A stretch of DNA of 64,000 nucleotides from Ecdyonurus torrentis (Eukaryota > Arthropoda > Insecta > Ephemeroptera > Heptageniidae). A program made the translations under genes and the position numbers. Numbering within the stretch: position 1 is the first letter of the stretch; the number at the start of each line of letters is the position of its first letter. The notes under the pieces were generated by a model. That model was not told where the DNA came from and did no database searches. It saw only the letters and a program-made list of their open reading frames with translations. Location of the stretch: positions 30,626,249-30,690,248 of the forward strand of contig OX439134.1 of assembly GCA_949318235.1 (NCBI GenBank), given 5' to 3'. Positions 1-61,542 of this stretch are shown here, piece by piece.

Positions 1-224
1 TCGAAAAATGTTGTGCTGGTTGCATGAGTCAAAAAAATGCCAATCTACCCGTACAACAATGAATTTTTGTTATTTTGCTCAATATATTTGTCAAATAAGG
101 GACTTCAAAAGAATAATGAGGAAGAAAAAAGTGGCAATTTTATTTCATATTCTTAAAGAGGACGTTGTTCTAAATCAATTTACGTGCAAATGTCTAATTT
201 TAGAATTAACTTAGTATACTTAAT

Positions 225-395
225 TAATTTTTGAAGTGGCAAAATGACGTAACAGTTGGTAACTTTTTCCTTTGTCCATATGCATAAGTTACTAACCATG
301 ACGTCATGTTTCGATGTTCATAAGTTAATTAAAAATATTTAAGTAACTAAAAAATTAAAAATTCATATATCAATCGATTTAAGACAATGTCTTCT
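225..395 (+). repeat. Dispersed repeat M20
   Basis: AACCATGACGTCATG and ATCAATCGATTTAAGACAAT correspond to motifs at 12190-12335. Probably an old MITE. Confidence 0.5.
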
Positions 396-480
396 TATAG
401 AATATAAACTAAAGTTACCCATTTAACTTTTTTTTTTGTCTTCCTCATTACGAAGCATAATACGAAACATGCATATCGAT

Positions 481-795
481 GGTGCTCCGCTATAATGTCC
501 TAAGTCCACTTGACCTTAAAAAATCGTCGGATCGACACCAAATTTTGGATTTTCCCATAATAATAATAATAATAATAGTTCTTTATTGGGTTTAAGATTG
601 TGAATAGTACATATAGCAAAAGAAAAAAAATACAAAAACAACAAGTAAGTAACCCAACGGGTGATGAGAAAAAGACAAAATGCCTATACACTATAGTGAT
701 CTCACACCTTTAACACCCATTTCAGGTCATTTACAGCAAAAATATATATATTTTTTCAAGGTCAAGTGGATTTAGGACATTATAGCAGAGCACCC
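481..795. mobile_element. MITE with ~45-bp TIRs
   Basis: GGTGCTCCGCTATAATGTCC at the left and GGACATTATAGCAGAGCACC at the right, continuing through the AGTCCACTTGACCTT arms. TCGAT occurs immediately outside both ends (476-480, 796-800) and is a candidate 5-bp duplication. The centre holds an ATA repeat followed by TTCTTTATTGGG. Confidence 0.78.
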
Positions 796-802
796 TCGAT
801 AT

Positions 803-1351
803 CCCAAAGTGATAAATATAAGAAAAAATCTTTTACTTTCAAACTAGTTCATTTTTAGAAAGTTATGTTTACCGGTTAGTCCATGAAATAAACAAGTAAA
901 TAGATTTGTCGGGTCAACTATACAACCAGGATATTTGTCCTAAAAACTAAACAATTAAAGTTTCACTGCATACAGTAATGTTTTTGAACACGTAGCAATG
1001 CAGTAACAATAAAGTAAAATATCATAGAAGTGCATATAATTACTATATTGTACAGTATAATTTGTCAAGTTTTCTGATTTCATTATAAAGTCTTTAATTT
1101 AACTGCAAATATAATCCATTCACTAATTGTAATTCATAGAAATAGACAGAGGAAAAGTAAATCAGTCTCTTCACTCACACGGGACTGCTTTTTAGTTCTG
1201 TATGACTTAAGGCAGTTTTATATTATATCATTATAGTGGATTTCAAGTCTCTTATTAAATGTATTCTGATACTGGGATATAACATTTTATTACTTTATGG
1301 CATTATAATGTACAGTATTCTTATAATGATATATTAGTACTCCCAACAGTA
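803..1351. other. AT-rich DNA, no feature seen
   Basis: No ORF of note, no repeat arms recognised. Confidence 0.5.
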
Positions 1352-1353
1352 TA

Positions 1354-1643
1354 TCACTCTAAAAACTGGTGCATTACTTTAGTTACGAATCCTAACTTAT
1401 TTAAGATATACACTTTTAAGTTATTTAAGTAGCTAAAATAATGCATTTTAGCAAGTTATTAAAAATAGCTAATTTAAGTTGTTTTAATTTTTTTAAATTT
1501 TTTTAAAGATATTTTAAGCTAAATTAGCTATTGTTGATAATTTGCTAAAATACATTATTTTAGCTACCCATAATAACTTAAAAGTGTATATCTTAAATAA
1601 GTTAGGATTCGTAACTAAAGTAATGCACCAGTTTTTAGAGTGA
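1354..1643. mobile_element. Palindromic MITE M3, TA flanked
   Basis: TCACTCTAAAAACTGGTGCA to TGCACCAGTTTTTAGAGTGA with TA on both sides (1352-1353, 1644-1645). Nearly the entire 290 bp is one inverted repeat with a short centre. TA flanks suggest a Tc1/mariner-type source (inference). Confidence 0.84.
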
Positions 1644-1651
1644 TAGTTTGC

Positions 1652-1935
1652 TTCATATAAAGTTCGTTCTATAAACTTCACACTTCTTGAGCCAGCTTTG
1701 GAAATTTTCCTTTGTTAAAAACATCTGATTATGACGTCATTGCCTGTTTATATGTATGGTTGATCATTGTTATTTCTTCGTAATTTGGACCTGATAAGAA
1801 TAAACAAAAAAGTTCTATTCTCAACATGCGACTCACTTTTATCGGCTCAAAAAACAAGATCAACCAATGAATGTGTCTTATTTTTTTGGTCAGCCAATCA
1901 CTGTTAATGAGCCTCATTATACTTTACAGATCAAA
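1652..1935 (-). mobile_element. MITE M6, old copy
   Basis: Reverse orientation: AAGTTCGTTCTATAAACTTC at one end, TATACTTTACAGATCAAAC at the other, with CCAATGAATGTG, GTCAGCCAATCACTG and ATGACGTCATTGCCTGTT inside. Confidence 0.68.
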
Positions 1936-2424
1936 CTGTAGTTCCTTATGACTAGGGTAGTTTAATATTATATAAAAAGTCATTAGTAAAAAGTCATTCA
2001 TTAAATTATATACATACTGTAAACCATTGAACAATTTATCTAGCCTTTCCCCAAGTATTAGCAAATCAGTTTTTATTTTCATTTATTGCACAGTATTGTA
2101 TCATGGAATACGTATAATATAAACAATACATACAATGTTGAAGCAGTGGTGTTGAGTTTTATTAAACACTTGGTGTGGATTGTCATGTGGTAGTCATTAT
2201 GTGGCAAACCTAGTCACGATTTAAAACAATTTAATTACACTCAAAATTAATTAACATATGAGCTCATTAACTTTTAGCTTCATGTGCAATGCTAAAATAA
2301 TGAAATATAATATATCACAAATATTTTCTATAGAAAATTAAATTTTGTTATTACGTTATTTATTAAATAAATAACTTGGATTTGAATAATGATAATTTTG
2401 TAAGTTACTTTTATTTGTACTCCA

Positions 2425-2517
2425 ATGCAAGATATCGGTTGGAACGTAGCACCAATCAGAGGCGAGATAGAAATAGGTGTGGAACCTCTAATTTAACATT
2501 ACGCTTATAGGAAGAAC

Positions 2518-2566
<49 letters not shown>

Positions 2567-2740
2567 TAATGTTTTGCAATTTTTGCAATTTTTAAGAAAA
2601 CTACTGAATTGATTTCGGAAAAACTGAAATGAGGGATGCTAGGCATAATTTGACGCTTGACGTACTTAAAGAAAAAAACTGGTAAGAAGCATTGAGAAAA
2701 TAAAAAAAATTGCAAAATAGGTAGCCAATTTTATAAACTC
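2425..2740 (+). repeat. Dispersed repeat M14 (with 46-bp poly-T)
   Basis: AATTTAACATTACGCTTATAGG, poly-T, then AAGAAAACTACTGAATTGAT and TGAAATGAGG. The same order occurs at 33105-33225. Confidence 0.55.
2519..2565. repeat. Poly-T tract
   Basis: About 46 consecutive T within the M14 copy. Confidence 0.9.
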
Positions 2741-2994
2741 TAGCTTTTGTTTCGCCATGAATTTTCAAATTTGACTACTTTACAATTTTTTAAACTCAAA
2801 TTTTAAGGGTGGAAAAGGACGTTTTAATTAGTAGATCCCATCTCACATTGACAAAAATAAACACGTAATAAGTATGCTAGTTCAATGCAGTAACATTTAT
2901 GCATTATATTAAATTTATGCTATATTGTATAGTTATTATACTGAACTATATAGCATAAAAATTAAGATGTTCAGCATAATTCAATTACTTATTT

Positions 2995-3154
2995 ACTGAT
3001 AAAATAACAACTGATTTGAGGCCCACTTTAAGTGATTTTGCTCACATCCCCATCCGTTTTTACTCAATACGCATGCGCAGTATGTCAAAACGGAAGCGGA
3101 TATAAGCGAAATCACTTATGGTAGGCCTCAAAACAGTTGTTTCTTTATTAGTCA
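2995..3154. mobile_element. Palindromic MITE M8
   Basis: TGATAAAATAACAACTGATT... and ...CAGTTGTTTCTTTATTAGTCA are inverted. The arms continue as GAGGCCCACTTTAAGTGATT / AATCACTTATGGTAGGCCTC. ACGCATGCGCAG sits at the centre. Confidence 0.72.
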
Positions 3155-3814: not shown

Positions 3815-4030
3815 AGAGCGACGGGGAGAGCGACGGGGAGAGCGACGGGGTGAGCGACGGGGTGAGCGACGGGGTGAGCGACGGGGAGAGCGACGGGGAG
3901 AGAGCGACGGAGAGAGAGCGACGGAGAGAGCGACGGAGAGAGCGACGGAGAGAGCGACGGAGAGAGCGACGGAGAGAGCGACGGAGAGAGCGACGGAGAG
4001 AGCGACGGAGAGAGCGACGGAGAGAGCGAC
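3815..4030. repeat. 12-bp minisatellite (AGCGACGGRGAG)n
   Basis: About 18 units. The first units are AGCGACGGGG(A/T)G and the later ones AGAGAGCGACGG, so two sub-arrays meet near 3900. ORFs on both strands here are artefacts of the repeat. Confidence 0.9.
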
Positions 4031-4815: not shown

Positions 4816-4856
4816 TGTCATTTTTATTAGAAAAAAAGCGGTGTATACCGAGCTGA

Positions 4857-6023: not shown

Positions 6024-6072
<49 letters not shown>

Positions 6073-6480
6073 TCCCTCTCCCTCTCCCTCTCCCTCTCCC
6101 TCTCCCTCTCCCTCTCCCTCTCCCTCTCCCTCTCCCTCTCCCTCTCCCTCTCCCTCTCCCTCTCCCTCTCCCTCTCCCTCTCCCTCTCCCTCTCCCTCTC
6201 CCTCTCCCTCTCCCTCTCCCTCTCCCTCTCCCTCTCCCTCTCCCTCTCCCTCTCCCTCTCCCTCTCCCTCTCCCTCTCCCTCTCCCTCTCCCTCTCTCTC
6301 TCCCTCTATCACTCTTCTTTCTTTTTCACGAGTCATTCACGGCTTCAACTTGATTGAGCTGTCTCGTATTTGAACTATAAGCAAGAAAACCGGGTAGAAA
6401 ATTGAGGGGGGGGGGGCAGGTACCCGAAGATTTTGACTCTGGCGGGTACTAGAACTGGTTTAAATTTACATCTCTACTAA
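5680..6480 (+). repeat. Dispersed repeat M13, interrupted by a microsatellite
   Basis: GAACTCCGAGTCATAC, GAAATCGAGTTCTAATTTG and, beyond the CT arrays, CCCGAAGATTTTGACTC and GAACTGGTTTAAATT parallel blocks at 22970-23395. Confidence 0.5.
6027..6308. repeat. (TC)n followed by (CCCTCT)n
   Basis: About 42 bp of TC, then about 38 perfect CCCTCT hexamers to about 6294, then TC again. The hexamer probably arose by a T-to-C change within the TC array. Confidence 0.95.
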
Positions 6481-14109: not shown

Positions 14110-14710
14110 TTAAATAAGTTAGTGTATACTTAATATGTTAGAGAAATACTTAACTTGTGACATTTTTCCATTCCCATGACGATATTTTCTCTACTTTAAA
14201 TAAGTTAGTGGAGTCATATTGTTAAAAAAATACTTAACTTATGACATTTTTCCGCTCCCATGCCGATATTTTCTCTAAGTACTATTTGTTTTGTACTGTA
14301 CTTTAACATGAAACAAAAGTTATAAGATTATAAAGTTATGCAAGTATGTTTATTTTTAGATTTTATAGTTTTTATTTACATAATAGCAAAGAAATATAAT
14401 ACTATTATATCACACTTACAACATAAAACATGTATTTGTAATCTACTTTATACTGCAGTTAAATAAATATTGCAAAACTTTATCATAAATATTACATTAA
14501 CTTTGCTTTTGTTTTTCTTAATAGCTCTTCAACTATTTTTATTGTCTTTTGCATATTACATTGTATTTTACTTTTTTATGTATATATATATATAATATTA
14601 TTTGTCTATTTAAATCATATACAGCATTGTAATAAATATGTCATGAACGTAAAAGTTTATTAGTTCATTTTATTTTAAGTTCTTTGATTTTATATTGCAT
14701 TTTCCTTTAA

Positions 14711-15044
14711 AGGAATAGACCAGGGAAAAACATTAGCATTTATATCACAAAACACTTGATGGGATTTACATAAATAACTTTAGTTTGTCTCAAAACCCAA
14801 CTGTAGCTCCGTAGCAGTGATCAGAAAATTTCATTTATGCAACCCGCACAACATTTTCATACTAATTTTGCATGTTTATGACGTCATAAACATGAATTTT
14901 CACGCAAATTGCATACTTTACAGTTTTTTCACGTTCCCTCGTGGGGTTACATTAACATTCTGGTAAAAATTGTCAGCAGTTTTGAAGATCCCATTTTGTG
15001 TTTATTTATTAAAAAGCACATGTTGTTTCATGTGGTCTATGGCT
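14711..15044 (-). mobile_element. MITE M1 copy, TTAA flanked
   Basis: TTAA at 14707-14710 and 15045-15048. Ends AGGAATAGACCAGGG and ...GTGGTCTATGGCT. About 334 bp, with the shared interior motif ATGACGTCA and no coding capacity. Confidence 0.82.
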
Positions 15045-15048
15045 TTAA

Positions 15049-20448: not shown

Positions 20449-20500
20449 CACACTAAAAATAAACATTGAAAAGCTTGTACACAGTTTTGCAATGTTTTAA

Positions 20501-20835
20501 AGCCATAGACCACATAAAACAACATGTGCTTTTTAATGAATAAACACGAAATGGGATCTTCATAACTGATGACAATTTTTACCAGAAAAATAATGTAGCC
20601 CTACGAGAGAGCGTAAAAGCACTGTAAAGTATGCAATTTGCGTTAAAATTCATGTGTATGACGTCAGAAACATGCAAAAATTAGTATGAAAATGTTGTGC
20701 GGGTTGCCTAAATTGAATTTTCTGATCACTGCTACGGGGCTACAGTTGGGATTTGAGACAAACTAAAGTTATTTATGTAAATCCCATCAAGTGTTTTGTG
20801 ATATAAATGCTTATGTTTTTCTCTGGTCTATTCCT
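20501..20835 (+). mobile_element. MITE M1 copy within M11
   Basis: TTAA at 20497-20500 and 20836-20839. Starts AGCCATAGACCACAT, ends CTGGTCTATTCCT. Its right TTAA is also the left TTAA of M10. Confidence 0.82.
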
Positions 20836-20839
20836 TTAA

Positions 20840-21977: not shown

Positions 21978-22422
21978 AATCAGATTGAATATAAAGTAAA
22001 AGAAAACATTAAAGATTTATATCATTAAAATTTATTCCACACCACAATTTTATATATTTTGCTAAGATATTTAAAATGTCAATATATACTGATGTGTTAT
22101 ATAAAAAAGAAGTCTTGTAAAGAAAACGAAAGAAGAAGATTAAATTATCTTCACTTTTACTGTATTTGTTTTTCCTCTGAGATAAAAATATTAAGAGCTT
22201 TATATTGAAATGATGAAGCTCATCAAGTGTTACTTTGATAGCGACATCAAAGTTGTTGGAGTAATATCTTTTGTATCTGCAGAGAAGAGTAACCTTAGTA
22301 ATGCACTTCATCTCTATAATGTAATGTAGGGTCTAGACCTACGTGAACAATATTGGGCTTGACAGACTATTTTTTGTGCGTCTGGATTTGAAATAAATAA
22401 TAAGAAATAACGTGATTTTTAA

Positions 22423-22756
22423 AGCCATAGACCACATAAAACGACATGTGCTTTTTAATGAATAAGCTTGAAATGGGATCTTCAAAACTAATGACAATTT
22501 TTACCAGAATGTTAATGTAGCCCCACGAGAGAGCATGAAAAAACTGTAAAGTATGCAATTTGCGTGAAAATTCATGTTAATGACGTCAGAAACATAAAAA
22601 TTTAGTATGAAAATGTTGTGCGGGTTGCATAAATGGAATATTCTGATCACTGCTACGGGGCTACTGTTAAGTTTTGAGACAAACTAAAGTTATTTATTTA
22701 AATCCCATCAAGTGTTTTGTGATATAAATGCTTATGTTTTTCTCCGGTCTATTCCT
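22423..22756 (+). mobile_element. MITE M1 copy, TTAA flanked
   Basis: TTAA at 22419-22422 and 22757-22760. AGCCATAGACCACAT to CCGGTCTATTCCT, 334 bp, closely matching the 20.5-kb copy. Confidence 0.84.
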
Positions 22757-22929
22757 TTAATTATGGCTTAAACGCGTAAAAGTGTATAATATACACCTCT
22801 TTTTACCAAAATTGATTCGTAAGTGCATACTATAGCATGGTTAAACGAAGCAGCTTTTGTGGGAGGAGCTGGTAGGGTTGTAGAAAAAACTTGAAAAGTG
22901 TTTAGGCAGGGCAGAGTTTTTTTTTATAT

Positions 22930-25800: not shown

Positions 25801-25875
25801 GAGAAACTTCAAAGTTTCTTTCAGGAATATATACAGATAAAATTCAATTGAATTAATCATTTTTCAATTTCTTAA

Positions 25876-26210
25876 AGCCATAGACCACATAAAACAACAT
25901 GTGCTTTTTAATGAATATACACGAAATGGGATCTTAAAAACTGATGAAAATTTTTACCAGAATGTTAATGTAGCCCCACGAGAGAGCATGAAAATACTGT
26001 AAAGTATGCAATTTGCGTGAAAGTTCATGTTTATGACGTCAGAAACATGCAAAAATTAGTATGAAAATGTTGTGCGGGTTGCATAAATCGAATTTTCTGA
26101 TCACTGCTACGAGGCTACTGTTGGGTTTTGAGACAAACTAATGTTATTTATGTAAATCCCATTAAGTGGTTTTTGATATAAATGCTTATGTTTTTCTCTG
26201 GTCTATTCCT
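25876..26210 (+). mobile_element. MITE M1 copy, TTAA flanked
   Basis: TTAA at 25872-25875 and 26211-26214. AGCCATAGACCACAT to CTGGTCTATTCCT, 335 bp. Confidence 0.84.
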
Positions 26211-26880
26211 TTAAAGTGAAGCAAAAAAAACTGAAACGTTAAATTCATTAGATAGGATCATAATTATAATAATAAGTACCTTTATTAAGGCGTTGTGTTT
26301 ACAAAATCTTGACCAAAATATTACATAAGTAAAAAATAGATACAGCAATAAAACATAGATTGCTAACAATTTTGACTTATTACATTGCTAAAATTGTAAC
26401 GCTTTTTTTTTGGGAAAATAGACTTTTTTTTTTTTTGCTTATTTTTTAAAATAGGAAATTATTTTACATGAAAATTAAATTATATACTAGATTTATGTAT
26501 ATGTAACAATAACATAATTAACTAATTGAAAGATTAGACGAGAAATTTGTTTATTTAAAAAGTTTTTAGGAGACAATAAAATCATTTTGTATATATCTAT
26601 AATATTTTAAATATACATATACTTATGACATACACATATCATTATGTTCTTCACCCTGCACACAAACTGGTGTAGTAGGCAAATTTAAAAACTCATGACA
26701 TCATGAAATTAGGGTGTACACTAGTAATTGTAGCGCTGGTTGTCTACTTAACAAGTTTTGTCCCCTAGTTTGTGAGAGTACATGTGCATGTACAGTCACA
26801 GTAAAGATACTGTGGTCCATGTAGTCCCATATGATTTATCATTGAGAGGATTTGGCCAGTATCTCTTCAAGATAGAAATA
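26211..26880. other. AT-rich DNA with an (AAT)n-ended fragment
   Basis: AATTATAATAATAAGTACCTTTATTAAGG near 26262 resembles a retroposon 3' end. Nothing else recognised. Confidence 0.35.
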
Positions 26881-38518: not shown

Positions 38519-38522
38519 TTAA
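38519..38522. repeat. TTAA target-site duplication, left
   Basis: TTAA directly outside the left transposon end, matched by TTAA at 45444-45447. The flanks on both sides belong to one interrupted MITE (family MB), which confirms the boundary. Confidence 0.88.
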
Positions 38523-38944
38523 AAGCGTAGAACACCTTAAATGCCCCAAAAGTGATAAATTAGCAGTTGAAATGTACATACCTGTCTTATATCATGCTTA
38601 GACCGTTTATTCCGCCTTAGTAGTTAATTATCGATTGATTTGAACATTTATCCCTAACGGTCGTTTTGCCGGTCACTGACGTCAGAGTACTACGATCCGC
38701 TTTTCTTGCAGCTGGAGTACTATGGTATACGTTCTCGTTTCCTATTGGCTGCACAAATATTGCGCGAAAACAAGAAGTTTAAAACTTTTTTTGAAGCACT
38801 GCATGTGTTATACACTTATTTTTTTTAATTATTTGCATTATTATTACATATATGGTACACAATATTTTATATCACACGAAAGAAATAAGGAGACGCCATG
38901 TTCTGACTCTGAAAAATATGCTAATAATGCACTTGCACTGTATG

Positions 38945-39210
38945 TCGCGCGCGCTCGCTGCACCGTCACTACATCGCAGTGTCAATGAACCCTTTACTCC
39001 CCGGCCTACAGGCTTGCACTTTGACTGTGTGAGTGTGTGTGTGTTTGTTGAGCTGGCTACAAGCAGAGCGATCACTTCGCGTGAATAAGGGAGGGGGTTC
39101 GTGCTCCACCGCAGGAGCACCTAAGTATTCCTTCATATGGAGAGCTGAGCTGCATGGCTCGCTTCTTGAGATATATCGTGATTCCACCCCGACTTTCCTC
39201 TTTTCAATTC
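38945..39210. other. GC-rich core of the left TIR with a perfect hairpin
   Basis: This block (mirrored at about 44756-45021) is far richer in GC than its surroundings. It contains a CGCGCGCGC run and, at 39101-39120, a 7-bp stem/6-nt loop hairpin GTGCTCC-ACCGCA-GGAGCAC. It could be a promoter, a transposase site or a structured RNA; I recognise no known RNA family. Confidence 0.5.
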
Positions 39211-39633
39211 CCCTCTTTCCTCCCGCTTATATACATACAGAAAAGTATCTCCCCTTGCTGCATTCTTGTGAACAAGGAAGAAATCATTTTTTTATTGTTT
39301 TCATCGGTAAATATATAAAAAAAAAAATATACATAATTAGGTAATTTAAATATAAAAAATTAGAAAATAATTTTTTTTTTTTTGAAACGCAGCTGTTTAT
39401 TGATTCCAAAGTAATTGATAATACATAATAACGAACTCTTAGGCAATAATTAATATAAAAAAATTCCCTTCTTGTTATCTTGATATACAAAAAATCAAAA
39501 GTTTTTTTTTTATTATTATTGTCATCGATAACAGGCTAAGATTTATACCAAAATATGTCTTTATGATACAAAAAATGTTGAATTTTTTTTTTATATACAC
39601 GCAGTTGTTTATGGATTGCAAAGTAATTCGATT

Positions 39634-39638
<5 letters not shown>

Positions 39639-39716
<78 letters not shown>
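39639..39716. repeat. (TA)n in the left TIR
   Basis: 78 bp. The right TIR counterpart at 44219-44325 is longer. Confidence 0.93.
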
Positions 39717-39720
<4 letters not shown>

Positions 39721-40144
39721 CCAAAGTTTTTTTCAGGCAATGCGATCGATGTAAAAAAAGAATTGCACACACAGGCAGAAGTAATAATAAAACGATAATT
39801 ATATGTTAAATTGTATACAAACTTAAAATTTACGCTACATTGTGTATTATAGTGCGTGATTACTACGTATAAGAATATTAATATTTATTCTACATGATAT
39901 TACGTATATTTATTTACAAAATATAGTAACATTTGTATAGTATACAATATAGCGATTAATAAATAAAGCAACTAATACACGGAATTTTTTACTTCATGAT
40001 TTTATATTTTAAATTTATTTAAACTATCCATTTTACATTTATAATTTTTATATATAAATTATACAATCATCAGTTTTATACAGTATTCTATAATACATTG
40101 GCTTCATTTTATATTTACAAAAATAAATTATATATATAGTATCT

Positions 40145-40150
40145 TTTATT
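40145..40150 (-). terminator. Possible polyadenylation signal of the transposase
   Basis: TTTATT on the plus strand (AATAAA on the minus strand), about 110 bp beyond the transposase stop and just outside the left TIR inner end. Confidence 0.4.
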
Positions 40151-40261
40151 ATACTACTTATGTATATTATTTAAGGATAGAATTTTTTTTTAATGGTTAG
40201 ACTATACAAATATGAGCGATGAGTTTTAAAAATATGAATAATTTTACTCTTACTAACTTTA

Positions 40262-42848
40262 TTACAATTTTTTTTTGGTCATTCTTGAGTACTTGGCTTT
40301 TTTGGCTTGAAATTCTATTGGATCTGTCTTTGGAATTGGAGAAATATTTTTGGGTATTTTGAATGGAAAGAGGAGTTTATCTATATGAGGATTTGTTGGT
40401 ATAGATTCAGGGTTCTTTGCATAGGCAACAATATTTGCAAGAATATTTTCACGCCATAAATTTGATTTTGATTTATAAATATTGTAGCTCACATTTTTTT
40501 TTGTTATTTTTGAGTAACGCTGGTATGTTTTTTCAAGAGGTCTACCAATATTATTATTATGATCTAAAATTGCCAATATGGACCTCAAAACCATGCCAAT
40601 ATACCTGAAATGTATTCTTTTCGGCGTATACATTAATCTTACATTGTGATAAGATTCAAGTTGACCTGTATGGCAGAAAAACCTAGCTTGTCTGAGATCT
40701 TTTAAATATCTTGGATTATTTACCATTGAGGAGAGTGCAGAAAACTCTTTTTTTGTATTTTTTTTCCCCAGCCACTTAGCTTTATGTTCTATATTAGAAT
40801 TTATTTTTGCATGAGAACATTTCTTGACAATTTTAAATGATGAATCATTATTCCAGATATGAATATTTTTTACATGCTTTAGAATTGATTTAAATTTCTC
40901 AATAAGGAGATCACCATTTTCATTACAACTGGATACAGCCCAACAAATGTGTTTTATAATACTAGACTTCCAATCTTGTAATATAGGATGCTGTTTGCAC
41001 AGACCAGTAAACTTTTTAGCAAAACTTTTTACAAGGTGCCAAATATCGTAGGCGTGATGGAGCCAGGGAAACTTAGTTCTCATTAACTTAGCTATACCAA
41101 TATGTCTGTCAGTTACAAATAAATAAATTTTTTCCCCGAATACCTCTACAAGTCTGGTTATAAGGTGATTACAGGCATGAAATTCTAATGCACCTACGAA
41201 CATTCCTTTTTGTACTATAACAAAATCAACAACTAAATTGCTGACAACGTCAAATATTGTATAAGTACAGTACTTGGATGTAAAGCCAGGAGAGTCGTGC
41301 TGGCCATCACCTCCAAGAAATATTTTGTTCTGACTTTTGGTTTTTTCTATAATTTCTTTTCGTTGCTCAAACCAAGCATGCTTTAATGTAGGAGATATGT
41401 ATTGATTTACAATGTTATTATAAGTAGTTTTGTTAAAAAATAAAACTTTCATGGTATTTGCAAATTTGTAAAATGTTGCAAAAGGCAATCCACTTAAAAA
41501 TATTGAACTTGCTATTATTATGTTTCCAATATTTCTTCTTTTTTTATCGTTTGGACACGAATGCCATGAGTTTTTATGACCATTTAAACAAGTAGTGTAG
41601 ATGCAAATTTGAGAACCTATAATTGTTTCTTTTTTACTAATAACTTTGCTACCACAAGTTAAGCAATAGGTGAATAAAAGCAGCAGATTTTGAATATAGA
41701 CAAACGCAAAATAATTTGTTTTTTTTTCACCTATTAATGGAACATCTGAATCTTCGTTTATATTTTTTTGATTGTTAATACCAACATCTTCATCACTCCA
41801 CTCCTCGTCATAATGTTCATCTTCTTTTTCTCTAATTTCTTCTTCTTCTATTACAGATTCAGACAAAGCAAACGTATTATCATTGGGGTCATTACATTCA
41901 TATATACTTGAGTTAAAAGTTTCATCAAGAAAAGGGAGGGGAGACACAGGTGGTGGCAAAGAATAAGGTTCAAAGTCGTTCGGCTCGCTATCCGTGTTAG
42001 TGGGAGCAAGGGATGAAGCAGGCGGTGGAGCGGTAGCCGCGCTCGTGCTCGTGCTCGTGCTCGTGCCCGCCTCTTCCGTGTCGTCGCTCACACGCTGCTG
42101 CCTTGTATCAACTCCAAATCTTTGTTTCTGAATGCTGGTTAAGGGAATACATGTTTCCGGCTGTGGTACAGCAGTGATATTTAATTTTGGTGCATAGAAC
42201 TTTTCACCTGGCATGAGCTCTCTCTTTCTTAAATCACTTTCACAGTAATCTGTCTTATCAAAGTGCATACTGCAAATAATATGTCGTGGACGAAGGTAAG
42301 CTGCAGGTATTTTTAAAGCTGTACTCCATTGTTCCAACCTGATAAAGAAAATCCTTTTTTAAACTCATAACAAAAAAATATGGAAAATATATACGGTATA
42401 ATTAAATTATGTAGCACCGTAAAAAAATTAATTATCTAGGTTTTTAATATTATCAGCTTGGCTCTTATGCAACTCAATTTAAAAAATCTCATAAAACTTA
42501 ATCAAAACAGATAATAATTTTAATGTAGTCACATTATTCTTTACATTTGCGGCATTAATTGTTTTAAAGTTTAACAGCATAATCTATGCTATACTAAACC
42601 TTTGCTATGTTTTTCAATGTGAAAAAAAAATTATATTGTTTGAAATTATAGTATCATTTATGTTAAAAAACAAAAACGTAGCATAAAATACGTAATTGGC
42701 TCTTTCCGCGGTATAAAAAATTATATTTAATTAATATTGTAATAACTTACCTAGTAGTATTTTTAATAATTGGCCCTAAACTGTGGAACCAAACATCTTT
42801 ATTATAATCATAGTTTTTGCATCCACCCACGACACACTGTTTAGGCAT
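40262..42848 (-). CDS. THAP-domain Kolobok-type DDE transposase, two exons
   Basis: Modelled as exon 1 (42848-42751), a 412-bp intron and exon 2 (42338-40262, stop at 40262-40264), giving 724 aa. Exon 2 alone is one 691-codon ORF opening on TTG, so the ATG must come from exon 1. Splice signals are CTAG|GTAAGT and TTTATCAG|G, and the phase is consistent. The THAP zinc finger spans residues 1-91: C5, C10, W20, C55, H58 and a terminal AVP (89-91). A low-complexity Ser/Thr/Pro and acidic linker covers about 120-235. A cysteine cluster follows (C258, C261, C278, C283, H292, C294), probably zinc-binding. The catalytic region has GGDG (D377), VTDRH (D443), DIWH (464-467) and GQLESYHN (E594), the likely DDE triad. 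The protein should bind the TIRs through THAP and cut and paste DNA at TTAA in the nucleus. Function is inferred from family motifs; all key residues are present and no frameshift is seen. Confidence 0.88.
42339..42750 (-). other. Transposase intron, carrying an M12-like repeat
   Basis: A 412-bp intron with a GT donor (42750-42749) and AG acceptor (42340-42339), preceded by a T-rich stretch. About 42570-42715 resembles the dispersed M12 family (AGCATAATCTATGCTA, ACGTAGCATAAAATACGTAAT, CTTTCCGCGGT end). A small repeat therefore appears to be housed in the intron without breaking the ORF. Confidence 0.7.
42570..42715. mobile_element. M12-like repeat in the transposase intron
   Basis: TTAACAGCATAATCTATGCT ... 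GTAGCATAAAATACGTAATT ... CTTTCCGCGG. It lies wholly inside the intron, so it is spliced out if the model is right. Confidence 0.48.
42751..42848 (-). other. Transposase exon 1 (N-terminal half of THAP finger)
   Basis: ATG at 42848-42846, 32 codons plus two bases. It encodes MPKQCVVGGC and the WFH segment, i.e. the first zinc-ligand pair of a C2CH THAP domain. It ends AG|GTAAGT at 42751/42750. Joined to exon 2 it makes a THAP domain of normal length (about 90 aa), which strongly supports the splice model. Confidence 0.82.
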
Positions 42849-43009
42849 TTTTAGCTACAATATAAAGTAATCGGCTTAAAAAACTATGAATACATAAGAA
42901 ATAAATCACTTATTTCATATATTACATGTTTCTCTTCCTGGGTTTCAGTGTTAACTGAGTTTTATTTCCTGAACTTGTTTGACTGCGCACGCGCGAGGGA
43001 TAAATAATT
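42849..43009. promoter_or_regulatory. Divergent promoter between the transposase and ORF2
   Basis: 161 bp separates the two start codons. TGCGCACGCGCG at 42984-42995 is CpG-rich and resembles the palindromic NRF1 site, in otherwise AT-rich DNA just upstream of ORF2. Both genes must use 5' control sequence here unless transcription starts in the TIRs. Promoter function is inferred from layout. Confidence 0.5.
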
Positions 43010-43645
43010 ATGTCGTATATGGGAAACTTTCCGTCAAGCGAAAACGTAGGAATTATTGCTAGCGCAGAAGAAACTCAAAATTTATCGTCCGATGAATCAG
43101 AAAATTCATACCCTGGTATTGATGATATTCCTATCTACACAAATGATGAATTGGAGGTGCTTGAAGCTCAGGTAGAGGAGGAGAGAATTGACCATATTGC
43201 ACGGGCTAATAACACCGATTGGTGTTTGTGTGAGAAATGTGAAAATTTATATAATGAATACAGCAGGTGTTGTAATGAATTAGATGTAATAAAAAGAAAA
43301 AAGGGGGACTCTTTGTGCATAACAAATACAAACAATTTTAATATAATAATATTTAATCAAGATATATTGCTTATGCTTAGACATGACTTATTGAAATATG
43401 AAACAGATCCATTAAAAATTGAAGAATTAAACACGCTGCAACCAAAAACCTGGAGATATTTAGCATATTGTCAATTTGTTAAATGGGTGAATTCTTATGA
43501 AAAAATGGGCAAAGGTAACAGAATGATTGTTCCTGCTTGTGTGGTAAAACTGATAAGAGAGAAATGGCCCGAGGAGTCAGGTGTTTACATGGGGCACCGC
43601 GAAGCATTAGATATGCAAGATGATGTTCAACATGTTATTGATTAA
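43010..43645 (+). CDS. Transposon ORF2: P2X7 ballast-like cysteine-rich protein
   Basis: 211 aa, single exon. ATG at 43010 has an in-frame TAA nine bases upstream, so it is the first possible start. Residues 1-68 are acidic and probably disordered. Residues 69-195 carry a recognisable pattern: WCLCEKC (W71, C72, C74, C77), CC (87-88), CIT (103-105), RYLAYCQFVKW (149-159, C154), GNRMIVPAC (169-177), IREKWP (182-187) and GVYMG (191-195). The same order of CC, CIT, AYR-x-[FY]-x-x-W, ILPSC, IRK-x-FP and G-x-Y-x-G occurs in the C-terminal cytoplasmic ballast of vertebrate P2X7, which binds zinc (family knowledge from memory). There is no membrane segment, so it is not a channel. It is divergent from the transposase with about 160 bp between starts. 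A role as an accessory DNA- or protein-binding factor is only inference. Confidence 0.8.
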   Translation: MSYMGNFPSSENVGIIASAEETQNLSSDESENSYPGIDDIPIYTNDELEVLEAQVEEERIDHIARANNTDWCLCEKCENLYNEYSRCCNELDVIKRKKGDSLCITNTNNFNIIIFNQDILLMLRHDLLKYETDPLKIEELNTLQPKTWRYLAYCQFVKWVNSYEKMGKGNRMIVPACVVKLIREKWPEESGVYMGHREALDMQDDVQHVID

Positions 43646-43762
43646 AACACGCATATCTGTCTTTGTCAATATTCCAATAACTATATTTTAATTCAATTAC
43701 TAGAAATGTACTTAATTGATAATTATGTGTCATAACGTTTTCGTTTTCAAATAATTTATATG

Positions 43763-43768
43763 TAATAA
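43763..43768 (+). terminator. Possible polyadenylation signal of ORF2
   Basis: AATAAA about 120 bp after the ORF2 stop and before the right TIR begins. Confidence 0.45.
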
Positions 43769-43828
43769 ACTGATCCTACAGGGTAATTTCCTTCTAAAAT
43801 AAAAATAATAATAATAATAAATAACAAT

Positions 43829-45443
<1,615 letters not shown>

Positions 45444-45447
45444 TTAA
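45444..45447. repeat. TTAA target-site duplication, right
   Basis: TTAA directly after the right end (...TTCTACGCCT). It pairs with 38519-38522. Confidence 0.88.
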
Positions 45448-49286: not shown

Positions 49287-49770
49287 GTGAATCAATGAAT
49301 TAATCAATGAATGAATGAATGAATGAATGAATGAATGAATGAATGAATGAATGAATGAATGAATGAATGAATGAATGAATGAATGAATGAATGAATGAAT
49401 GAATGAATGAATGAATGAATGAATGAATGAATGAATGAATGAATGAATGAATGAATGAATGAATGAATGAATGAATGAATGAATGAATGAATGAATGAAT
49501 GAATGAATGAATGAATGAATCAATGAATCAATGAATCAATGAATCAATGAATCAATGAATCAATGAATGAATCAATGAATGAATCAATGAATCAATGAAT
49601 GAATCAATGAATGAACCAATGAATGAATCAATGAATCAATCAATGAATGAATCAATGAATGAATCAATCAATGAATGAATCAATGAATGAATCAATGACT
49701 GAATCAATGAATGAATCAATGAATGAATCAATGAATCAATCAATGAATCAATCATTGAATCAATCAAGCA
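49287..49770. repeat. (GAAT)n tetranucleotide array with a decayed right side
   Basis: Perfect GAAT units at about 49305-49519, then mixed GAAT/CAAT units to about 49770. Long ORFs across it are artefacts. Confidence 0.94.
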
Positions 49771-61076: not shown

Positions 61077-61542
61077 TGGGAGGGAGGGAGGGAGGGAAGG
61101 AGGGAGGGAGGGAGGGAGGGAGGGAGGGAGGGAGGGAGGGAGGGAGGGAGGGAGGGAGGGAGGGAGGGAGGGAGGGAGGGAGGGAGGGAGGGAGGGAGGG
61201 AGGGAGGGAGGGAGGGAGGGAGGGAGGGAGGGAGGGAGGGAGGGAGGGAGGGAGGGAGGGAGGGAGGGAGGGAGGGAGGGAGGGAGGGAGGGAGGGAGGG
61301 AGGGAGGGAGGGAGGGAGGGAGGGAGGGAGGGAGGGAGGGAGGGAGGGAGGGAGGGAGGGAGGGAGGGAGGGAGGGAGGGAGGGAGGGAGGGAGGGAGGG
61401 AGGGAGGGAGGGAGGGAGGGAGGGAGGGAGGGAGGGAGGGAGGGAGGGAGGGAGGGAGGGAGGGAGGGAGGGAGGGAGGGAGGGAGGGAGGGAGGGAGGG
61501 AGGGAGGGAGGGAGGGAGGGAGGGAGGGAGGGAGGGAGGGAG
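61077..61542. repeat. (GGGA)n tetranucleotide array
   Basis: About 465 bp of nearly perfect GGGA with one GGAA near 61096. Purine-only on the plus strand; G-runs of three every four bases could form quadruplexes. The 159-181-codon ORFs here are artefacts. Confidence 0.96.

Follow-up and report, generated by a model that had tools for sequence, protein, structure and literature searches.

A P2X7-ballast homologue encoded beside the transposase of a Kolobok element in the mayfly Ecdyonurus torrentis

Why does a DNA transposon of a mayfly encode a protein that resembles the cytoplasmic C terminus of the P2X7 receptor, and what does this protein do for the element? The question is raised by a stretch of 64,000 nucleotides from Ecdyonurus torrentis (assembly GCA_949318235.1, contig OX439134.1, positions 30,626,249 to 30,690,248; hereafter the window), where an open reading frame (ORF) of 211 residues lies next to a transposase gene at 43010–43645 on the plus strand. 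Kojima and Bao (2022, PMC9587614) described KolX as a second protein encoded by Kol0 Kolobok elements, resembling residues 476–595 of human P2X7 with its two zinc ions and seven cysteines, and argued that P2X7 originated from the fusion of a P2X4-like gene with KolX. The pairing of KolX with a transposase, which a preliminary description of the locus was unsure had been reported, is therefore not new, and the element of the window is a new member of this KolX-bearing kind. What is new is the genome-wide linkage and co-divergence of both genes in the host genome. The ORF, referred to here as KolX, is probably the second gene of a Kol0-type Kolobok element that is autonomous and was mobile recently, acting as an accessory transposition protein homologous to the P2X7 ballast.

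Homology of KolX to the P2X7 ballast

The C-terminal domain of KolX and the cytoplasmic ballast of P2X7, with its two zinc ions, are homologous. The ORF runs from ATG to stop without interruption and matches the Pfam family P2RX7_C (PF20478) over residues 45–197, with 63.8 bits (cut-off 23.5) and an E value of 2.7e-17, while P2X7 chains in the PDB match it at E values of 1.2e-6 to 2.4e-5. It holds, in this order, the motifs W71-C72-x-C74-x2-C77, C87C88, C103-I-T, A152-Y-C-Q-F-x2-W159, I173-V-P-A-C177, I182-REKWP187, and G191-V-Y-M-G195. The preliminary description was thus right about the intact ORF, the likeness to the P2X7 C terminus and the order of the motifs, although two residues, and not three, precede W159. 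KolX and the P2X7 ballast share the seven zinc cysteines, the equivalents of R546 and R578, and the motif order, and P2X7 is also the best match, though below significance, of the predicted KolX fold. On the other hand, KolX sits in a transposon and has a different N-terminal region, which is acidic (16 acidic and two basic residues among residues 1–68). PF20478 is the only Pfam domain above its cut-off in the ORF, so that the P2X channel domain (PF00864) is not found in it, and NCBIfam gave no match up to an E value of 0.1.

Overall identity between KolX and P2X7 is low (about 21–31%), as would be expected if the resemblance were due to chance or to a generic cysteine-rich zinc finger. A profile built exclusively from P2X7 tails, however, scores the ORF at 50.0 bits, whereas the best of 2000 plain shuffles (1722 of which scored at all) reached 8.4 bits, and the best of 2000 shuffles keeping every cysteine and tryptophan in place reached 17.4 bits. 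Chance resemblance is ruled out by this control, and together with the Pfam E value it reduces the probability of the whole alternative, zinc finger included, to practically nil.

The P2X7-tail profile comprises 36 of the 37 PF20478 proteins retrieved by a profile search with alignment A2, the remaining one lacking the motif used for cutting. Since A2 itself contains P2X7 rows, this search is no independent proof of homology. The 11 sequences examined and the listed names look like vertebrate P2X7 tails, and no invertebrate KolX was recognised among them. A protein search with the ORF alone returned 76 candidates, none at E ≤ 0.001. Scans of viral contigs with the ORF and the transposase, and with the alignments A1 (transposases) and A4 (KolX and P2X7), confirmed no relatives, nor did a scan of genome contigs with A1, and no phage records were found by near match.

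Regarding the nucleotide chemistry of the ballast, the residues contacting guanosine diphosphate (GDP) in rat P2X7 are given by Rump et al. (2020, PMC7016195) as R546, H547, R574, R578, and K583. By alignment, two of these five are kept in KolX (R149 and R183), and the equivalents of H547, R574, and K583 are Y, V, and E, so that KolX may or may not bind the nucleotide. The same pattern, with R546 and R578 kept and the other GDP residues lost, is reported in PMC7016195 for invertebrates. KolX likewise resembles the nanor/ZCD proteins of that study (PANTHER PTHR36981) in being a short stand-alone ballast protein; Rump et al., in contrast, treat ballast genes as host genes with ancestral synteny.

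A two-gene Kolobok element and its copies

KolX belongs to a complete element of 6,921 bp (38523–45443, 5'-AAGCGTAGAAC...GTTCTACGCCT-3'), which is flanked by TTAA target-site duplications at 38519–38522 and 45444–45447. The element is bounded by terminal inverted repeats of 1,595 bp on the left (38523–40117, plus) and 1,626 bp on the right (43818–45443, minus). The alignment of both arms has six mismatches and 31 gap columns, the gaps being due mostly to an AT microsatellite of unequal length. These repeats of about 1.6 kb make up nearly half of the element. KolX and the transposase gene are placed head-to-head between them, and the 161 bp separating their start codons (42849–43009) presumably act as a shared divergent promoter. 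The 6.9-kb transposon, its Kolobok affinity and the divergent orientation of the ORF had all been correctly recognised in the preliminary description.

The transposase, of 724 residues, is encoded on the minus strand, with its first 33 residues on a separate exon. Exon 1 (42751–42848), also found in both other copies of the element described below, encodes the first part of the THAP domain, and is joined by a GT-AG splice across a predicted intron (42339–42750), absent from the preliminary description, to exon 2 (40262–42338), which encodes the rest of THAP followed by the DDE core. With exon 1 joined, the C2CH-type THAP domain (PF05485) is matched at an E value of 1.7e-9, compared to 0.002 without it. 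The DDE core holds the motifs GGDGQ (375), TDRH (442), DIWH (464), CSH (540), and LESYH (593), in the numbering of the 724-residue protein. GGDGQ, TDRH, DIWH, C-x-H, and LESYH are common to six related proteins (two from mayflies, one each from Xenopus and Mytilus, and two others), with some motif blocks missing from the partial rows of the alignment. The order DxxH, then Cys/His, and then E is the Kolobok signature according to PMC9587614, from which the catalytic residues of the transposase are putatively assigned.

The element thus combines a TTAA duplication (in the window copy and two more), a DDE transposase with C/DxxH between its second D and the E and with a Cys/His zinc motif following C/DxxH, a THAP domain, and 5'-RR and YY-3' termini (AA...CT in the window copy and AG...CT in the other two), all of which are Kolobok features. 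The second gene, with its ballast domain and seven cysteines, points to a putative placement in the Kol0 lineage. The closest described type is Kolobok-1_XT, a Kol0 element with KolX (PMC9587614), which shares the TTAA target, the RR...YY ends, THAP, the ballast gene with seven cysteines, and a DDE transposase with DxxH and a Cys/His pair before the last E. The inverted repeats are much longer here than the 16-bp terminal sequences tabulated for full-length Xenopus elements in PMC6004289, which may not be the whole repeat. The TTAA target is also common to piggyBac, but the transposase is of the THAP/DxxH Kolobok type, and the ends are RR...YY.

Two further copies, on contigs C8 (6,883 bp) and C12 (6,854 bp), differ from the window copy by four and 19 substitutions, respectively, and are 99.7–99.9% identical to it over aligned bases. 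Both begin with AGGCG and lie between TTAA duplications, and the flanks (up to 600 bp per side) are dissimilar among all three copies. KolX therefore moves as part of the element. In two other families, represented by L011 (5,961 bp) and L012 (4,662 bp), KolX and a transposase gene are likewise enclosed by inverted repeats with TTAA on their outer sides. Repeat length varies among the KolX elements of this genome, being about 100 bp in the former locus and 466 bp in the latter.

Linkage, constraint and the role of KolX

The host assembly (503 Mb in 117 contigs) was searched with the KolX ORF, which yielded 24 matches at 22 loci, and with exon 2 of the transposase, which yielded 36 matches at 25 loci; these searches score relatives of the query alone, and more distant KolX or transposase genes would escape them. 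A transposase lies within 10 kb at 17 of the 22 KolX loci, and within 5 kb at 16 of them. The expectation under random placement is 0.1% per locus, giving a binomial tail of 2e-47, a figure that is overstated, since related copies were counted as independent. Among the 17 linked pairs, 16 are divergent. The state of the transposases, taken from stop counts of the transposase search merged per locus, points in the same direction. KolX stands beside each of the 15 loci in which the catalytic part is matched and interrupted by no more than one stop, and beside two of the nine with at least four stops, while the remaining locus (L029) matches by its THAP part alone. Because the loci with a catalytic part and without KolX have all decayed in this genome, KolX might be an obligate partner of the Kol0 transposase and not optional cargo, a suggestion that we make tentatively, at somewhat less than even probability.

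Both genes have also diverged in parallel. Distances among KolX genes track those among the transposases, with r 0.86 across nine non-redundant loci (Mantel test, permutation p 1e-4) and r 0.94 across twelve. All seven zinc cysteines are kept in the 16 KolX loci whose frame spans them, and the position of R546 is occupied by arginine in 21 of 21 loci and that of R578 in 18 of 19. Purifying selection is evident among eight KolX loci that form one group (L014, L015, L016, L018, L020, L021, L024, and L025), whose frames were taken from stop to stop, some of them with a few codons before the start. In the 25 diverged pairs of this group, the nonsynonymous distance (dN) is 0.15–0.34, and the synonymous distance (dS) is 1.2–3.1 in 16 pairs and saturated in nine; dN/dS in the 16 pairs is 0.05–0.19.

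Obligate-looking linkage, co-divergence, and constraint turn the KolX annotation of 2022 into evidence of service to the element. An accessory role in transposition, together with the THAP-DDE transposase, could operate as follows. Through its THAP domain, the transposase would recognise the inverted repeats, and it would cut the element and paste it into TTAA. The shared divergent promoter would also drive KolX, which would serve as a zinc-stabilised helical scaffold in contact with the transposon ends, with a host factor, or with the transposase itself. The suggestion of the preliminary description that KolX may help transposition gains from the linkage, the co-divergence, and the constraint, all of which are indirect.

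Several observations weigh against this proposal. Homology points to no particular function of KolX, and linkage and constraint would suit a regulator or an anti-silencing factor as well. The selection result comes from a KolX group other than that of the window, whose copies differ too little, and near-identical KolX pairs are uninformative (dN/dS of 0.23 to 1.39 on two to 11 changes). The pair at L011 is convergent, and convincing TTAA-flanked inverted repeats were found at four of the 19 loci searched (C8, C12, L011, and L012), although the ends of older or larger elements may no longer be present or recognisable. Five of the 22 KolX loci stand alone, with no transposase up to 10 kb away: one at 15.93 Mb of C17 with an intact frame of 198 residues, two on C20 within one duplication, one near a contig end on C42, and one at 4.77 Mb of C4. 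The single-sequence prediction of KolX failed, with a mean predicted local distance difference test (pLDDT) score of 33.4, and in the KolX model the zinc-cluster part (residues 55–101) has a pLDDT under 50. Foldseek gave no match to this model at E ≤ 0.001, its best ten matches being all P2X7 (0.0097–0.14), and this comparison is not independent of sequence, as P2X7 sequences are in the alignment.

The main rival to an accessory transposition role is that KolX acts on the host, counteracting silencing or regulating the element so that its expression is maintained. Such a protein would be expected to show just this linkage, co-divergence, and constraint, and the acidic N-terminal region of KolX would suit it. 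The sole other functional hint for the family is the proposed transcription role of zebrafish nanor (PMC7016195). Accessory proteins of other transposons offer an analogy. Nothing specific speaks against a host-acting KolX, beyond Pfam recognising no domain above its cut-off other than the ballast, and we regard it as rather unlikely but as the alternative to be taken most seriously.

The five KolX genes without a nearby transposase would also agree with KolX being a passenger host gene that renders no service to the element. Against this stand the parallel divergence with the transposase, the constraint maintained in one group over deep divergence, the presence of KolX in several distinct families and mostly in one orientation, and the lack of a host P2X7 as supplier. 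The passenger reading is disfavoured, and its probability is very small compared to that of an accessory protein, which remains the preferred explanation.

Some loci deserve separate mention. L027 (G000:C17:15931457-15931987), a lone KolX and the most diverged one, keeps the 198-residue frame and the seven cysteines, with the nearest transposase match on its contig 7.65 Mb away, and is a candidate domesticated KolX. The transposase-less genes L018 and L021 (G000:C20:179072 and 281382) lie 102 kb apart in a duplication of at least 7.4 kb with 97.5% identity, in which one frame is kept and the other has a stop. L029 (G000:C17:24520000-24525999) is a C2H2 zinc-finger gene (exon 1 at 4841–4743 and an open frame at 3–3104, both on the minus strand) with an N terminus like the transposon THAP. 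Its exon 1 is 70% identical to residues 1–33 of the transposase, and the next exon, which continues in frame into C2H2 fingers, is 62% identical to residues 33–116. No DDE-part match to the transposase was found in L029, and in the second frame, when taken by itself, Pfam names nothing but the C2H2 fingers. The gene resembles a fusion of host and transposase sequence, or else the donor of the THAP part.

Origin of the domain and other features of the window

If KolX had been copied from the host, a P2X7 gene would be expected as donor. One P2X locus was found in the host genome, with six exon matches on C1, and none of the 21 PF20478 matches in the genome lies on C1. There is thus no ballast match at this locus and no host P2X7 in evidence to copy the ORF from, so that capture of a host P2X7 tail was rejected. 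A one-off insertion was likewise rejected by the 22 KolX loci. These loci, the three near-identical copies, and the single host P2X locus without a ballast match exclude that the ORF is a piece of host sequence picked up by this one copy, which would have contradicted the preliminary description. Its idea that mobile elements are a source or carrier of the ballast domain holds, and had already been published (PMC9587614).

The P2X7 ballast would be, as Kojima and Bao proposed (PMC9587614), a domesticated KolX domain. Searches of an open-access library turned up no other paper that names KolX, none that brings together P2X7, its ballast, and transposons, and none since 2021 that links purinergic P2X7 with domesticated transposons. 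Alternatively, an ancient host ballast or nanor-like gene may have been captured early by a Kolobok element, P2X7 and KolX both deriving from it, which concerns origin and can hold together with an accessory role. In a tree of six P2X7 tails and 12 KolX proteins of a single genome, each set occupies one side of one branch, which leaves room for such an ancestor; the direction of transfer is not readable from this tree, as it is unrooted. The stand-alone ballast genes of Rump et al. are, however, attributed to Kolobok in PMC9587614, and most KolX genes of the host genome lie beside transposases. We therefore judge an origin from a host gene to be quite improbable, and favour the domestication of a KolX domain.

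If KolX is indeed an obligate partner, the P2X7 ballast would be a piece of transposition machinery, from which the receptor tail would have its zinc and nucleotide chemistry. According to PMC7016195, ballast genes of animals ranging from sponge to sea urchin adjoin two linked markers, and in Ixodes one protein combines the ballast motif with a THAP domain (printed 'TAHP'); the word stem 'transpos' is absent from its main text. KolX is itself partnered by a transposase with THAP, so this ancestral synteny and the Ixodes protein may go back to the pair of genes of Kolobok elements, and not to conserved host gene order. P2X7 is a drug target, and an intact, apparently recently mobile KolX element offers a system in which the ancestral job of the ballast fold could be tested.

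Regarding the remainder of the window, Rfam gave no matches at gathering score, and no host genes were recognised from reading open frames, with no systematic gene search made. The window also holds long and nearly perfect microsatellites, namely (GGGA) x116 at 61078–61542 and (CTCTCC) x47 at 6028–6307, together with an array of the TGAATGAA type at 49288–49764 and a 12-bp unit repeated 18 times at 3815–4030. A dispersed repeat of about 340 bp is present in several inverted copies of 90–96% identity (14707–15048, 22419–22760, 20497–20839, and 25872–26216), and is possibly a short non-autonomous element.
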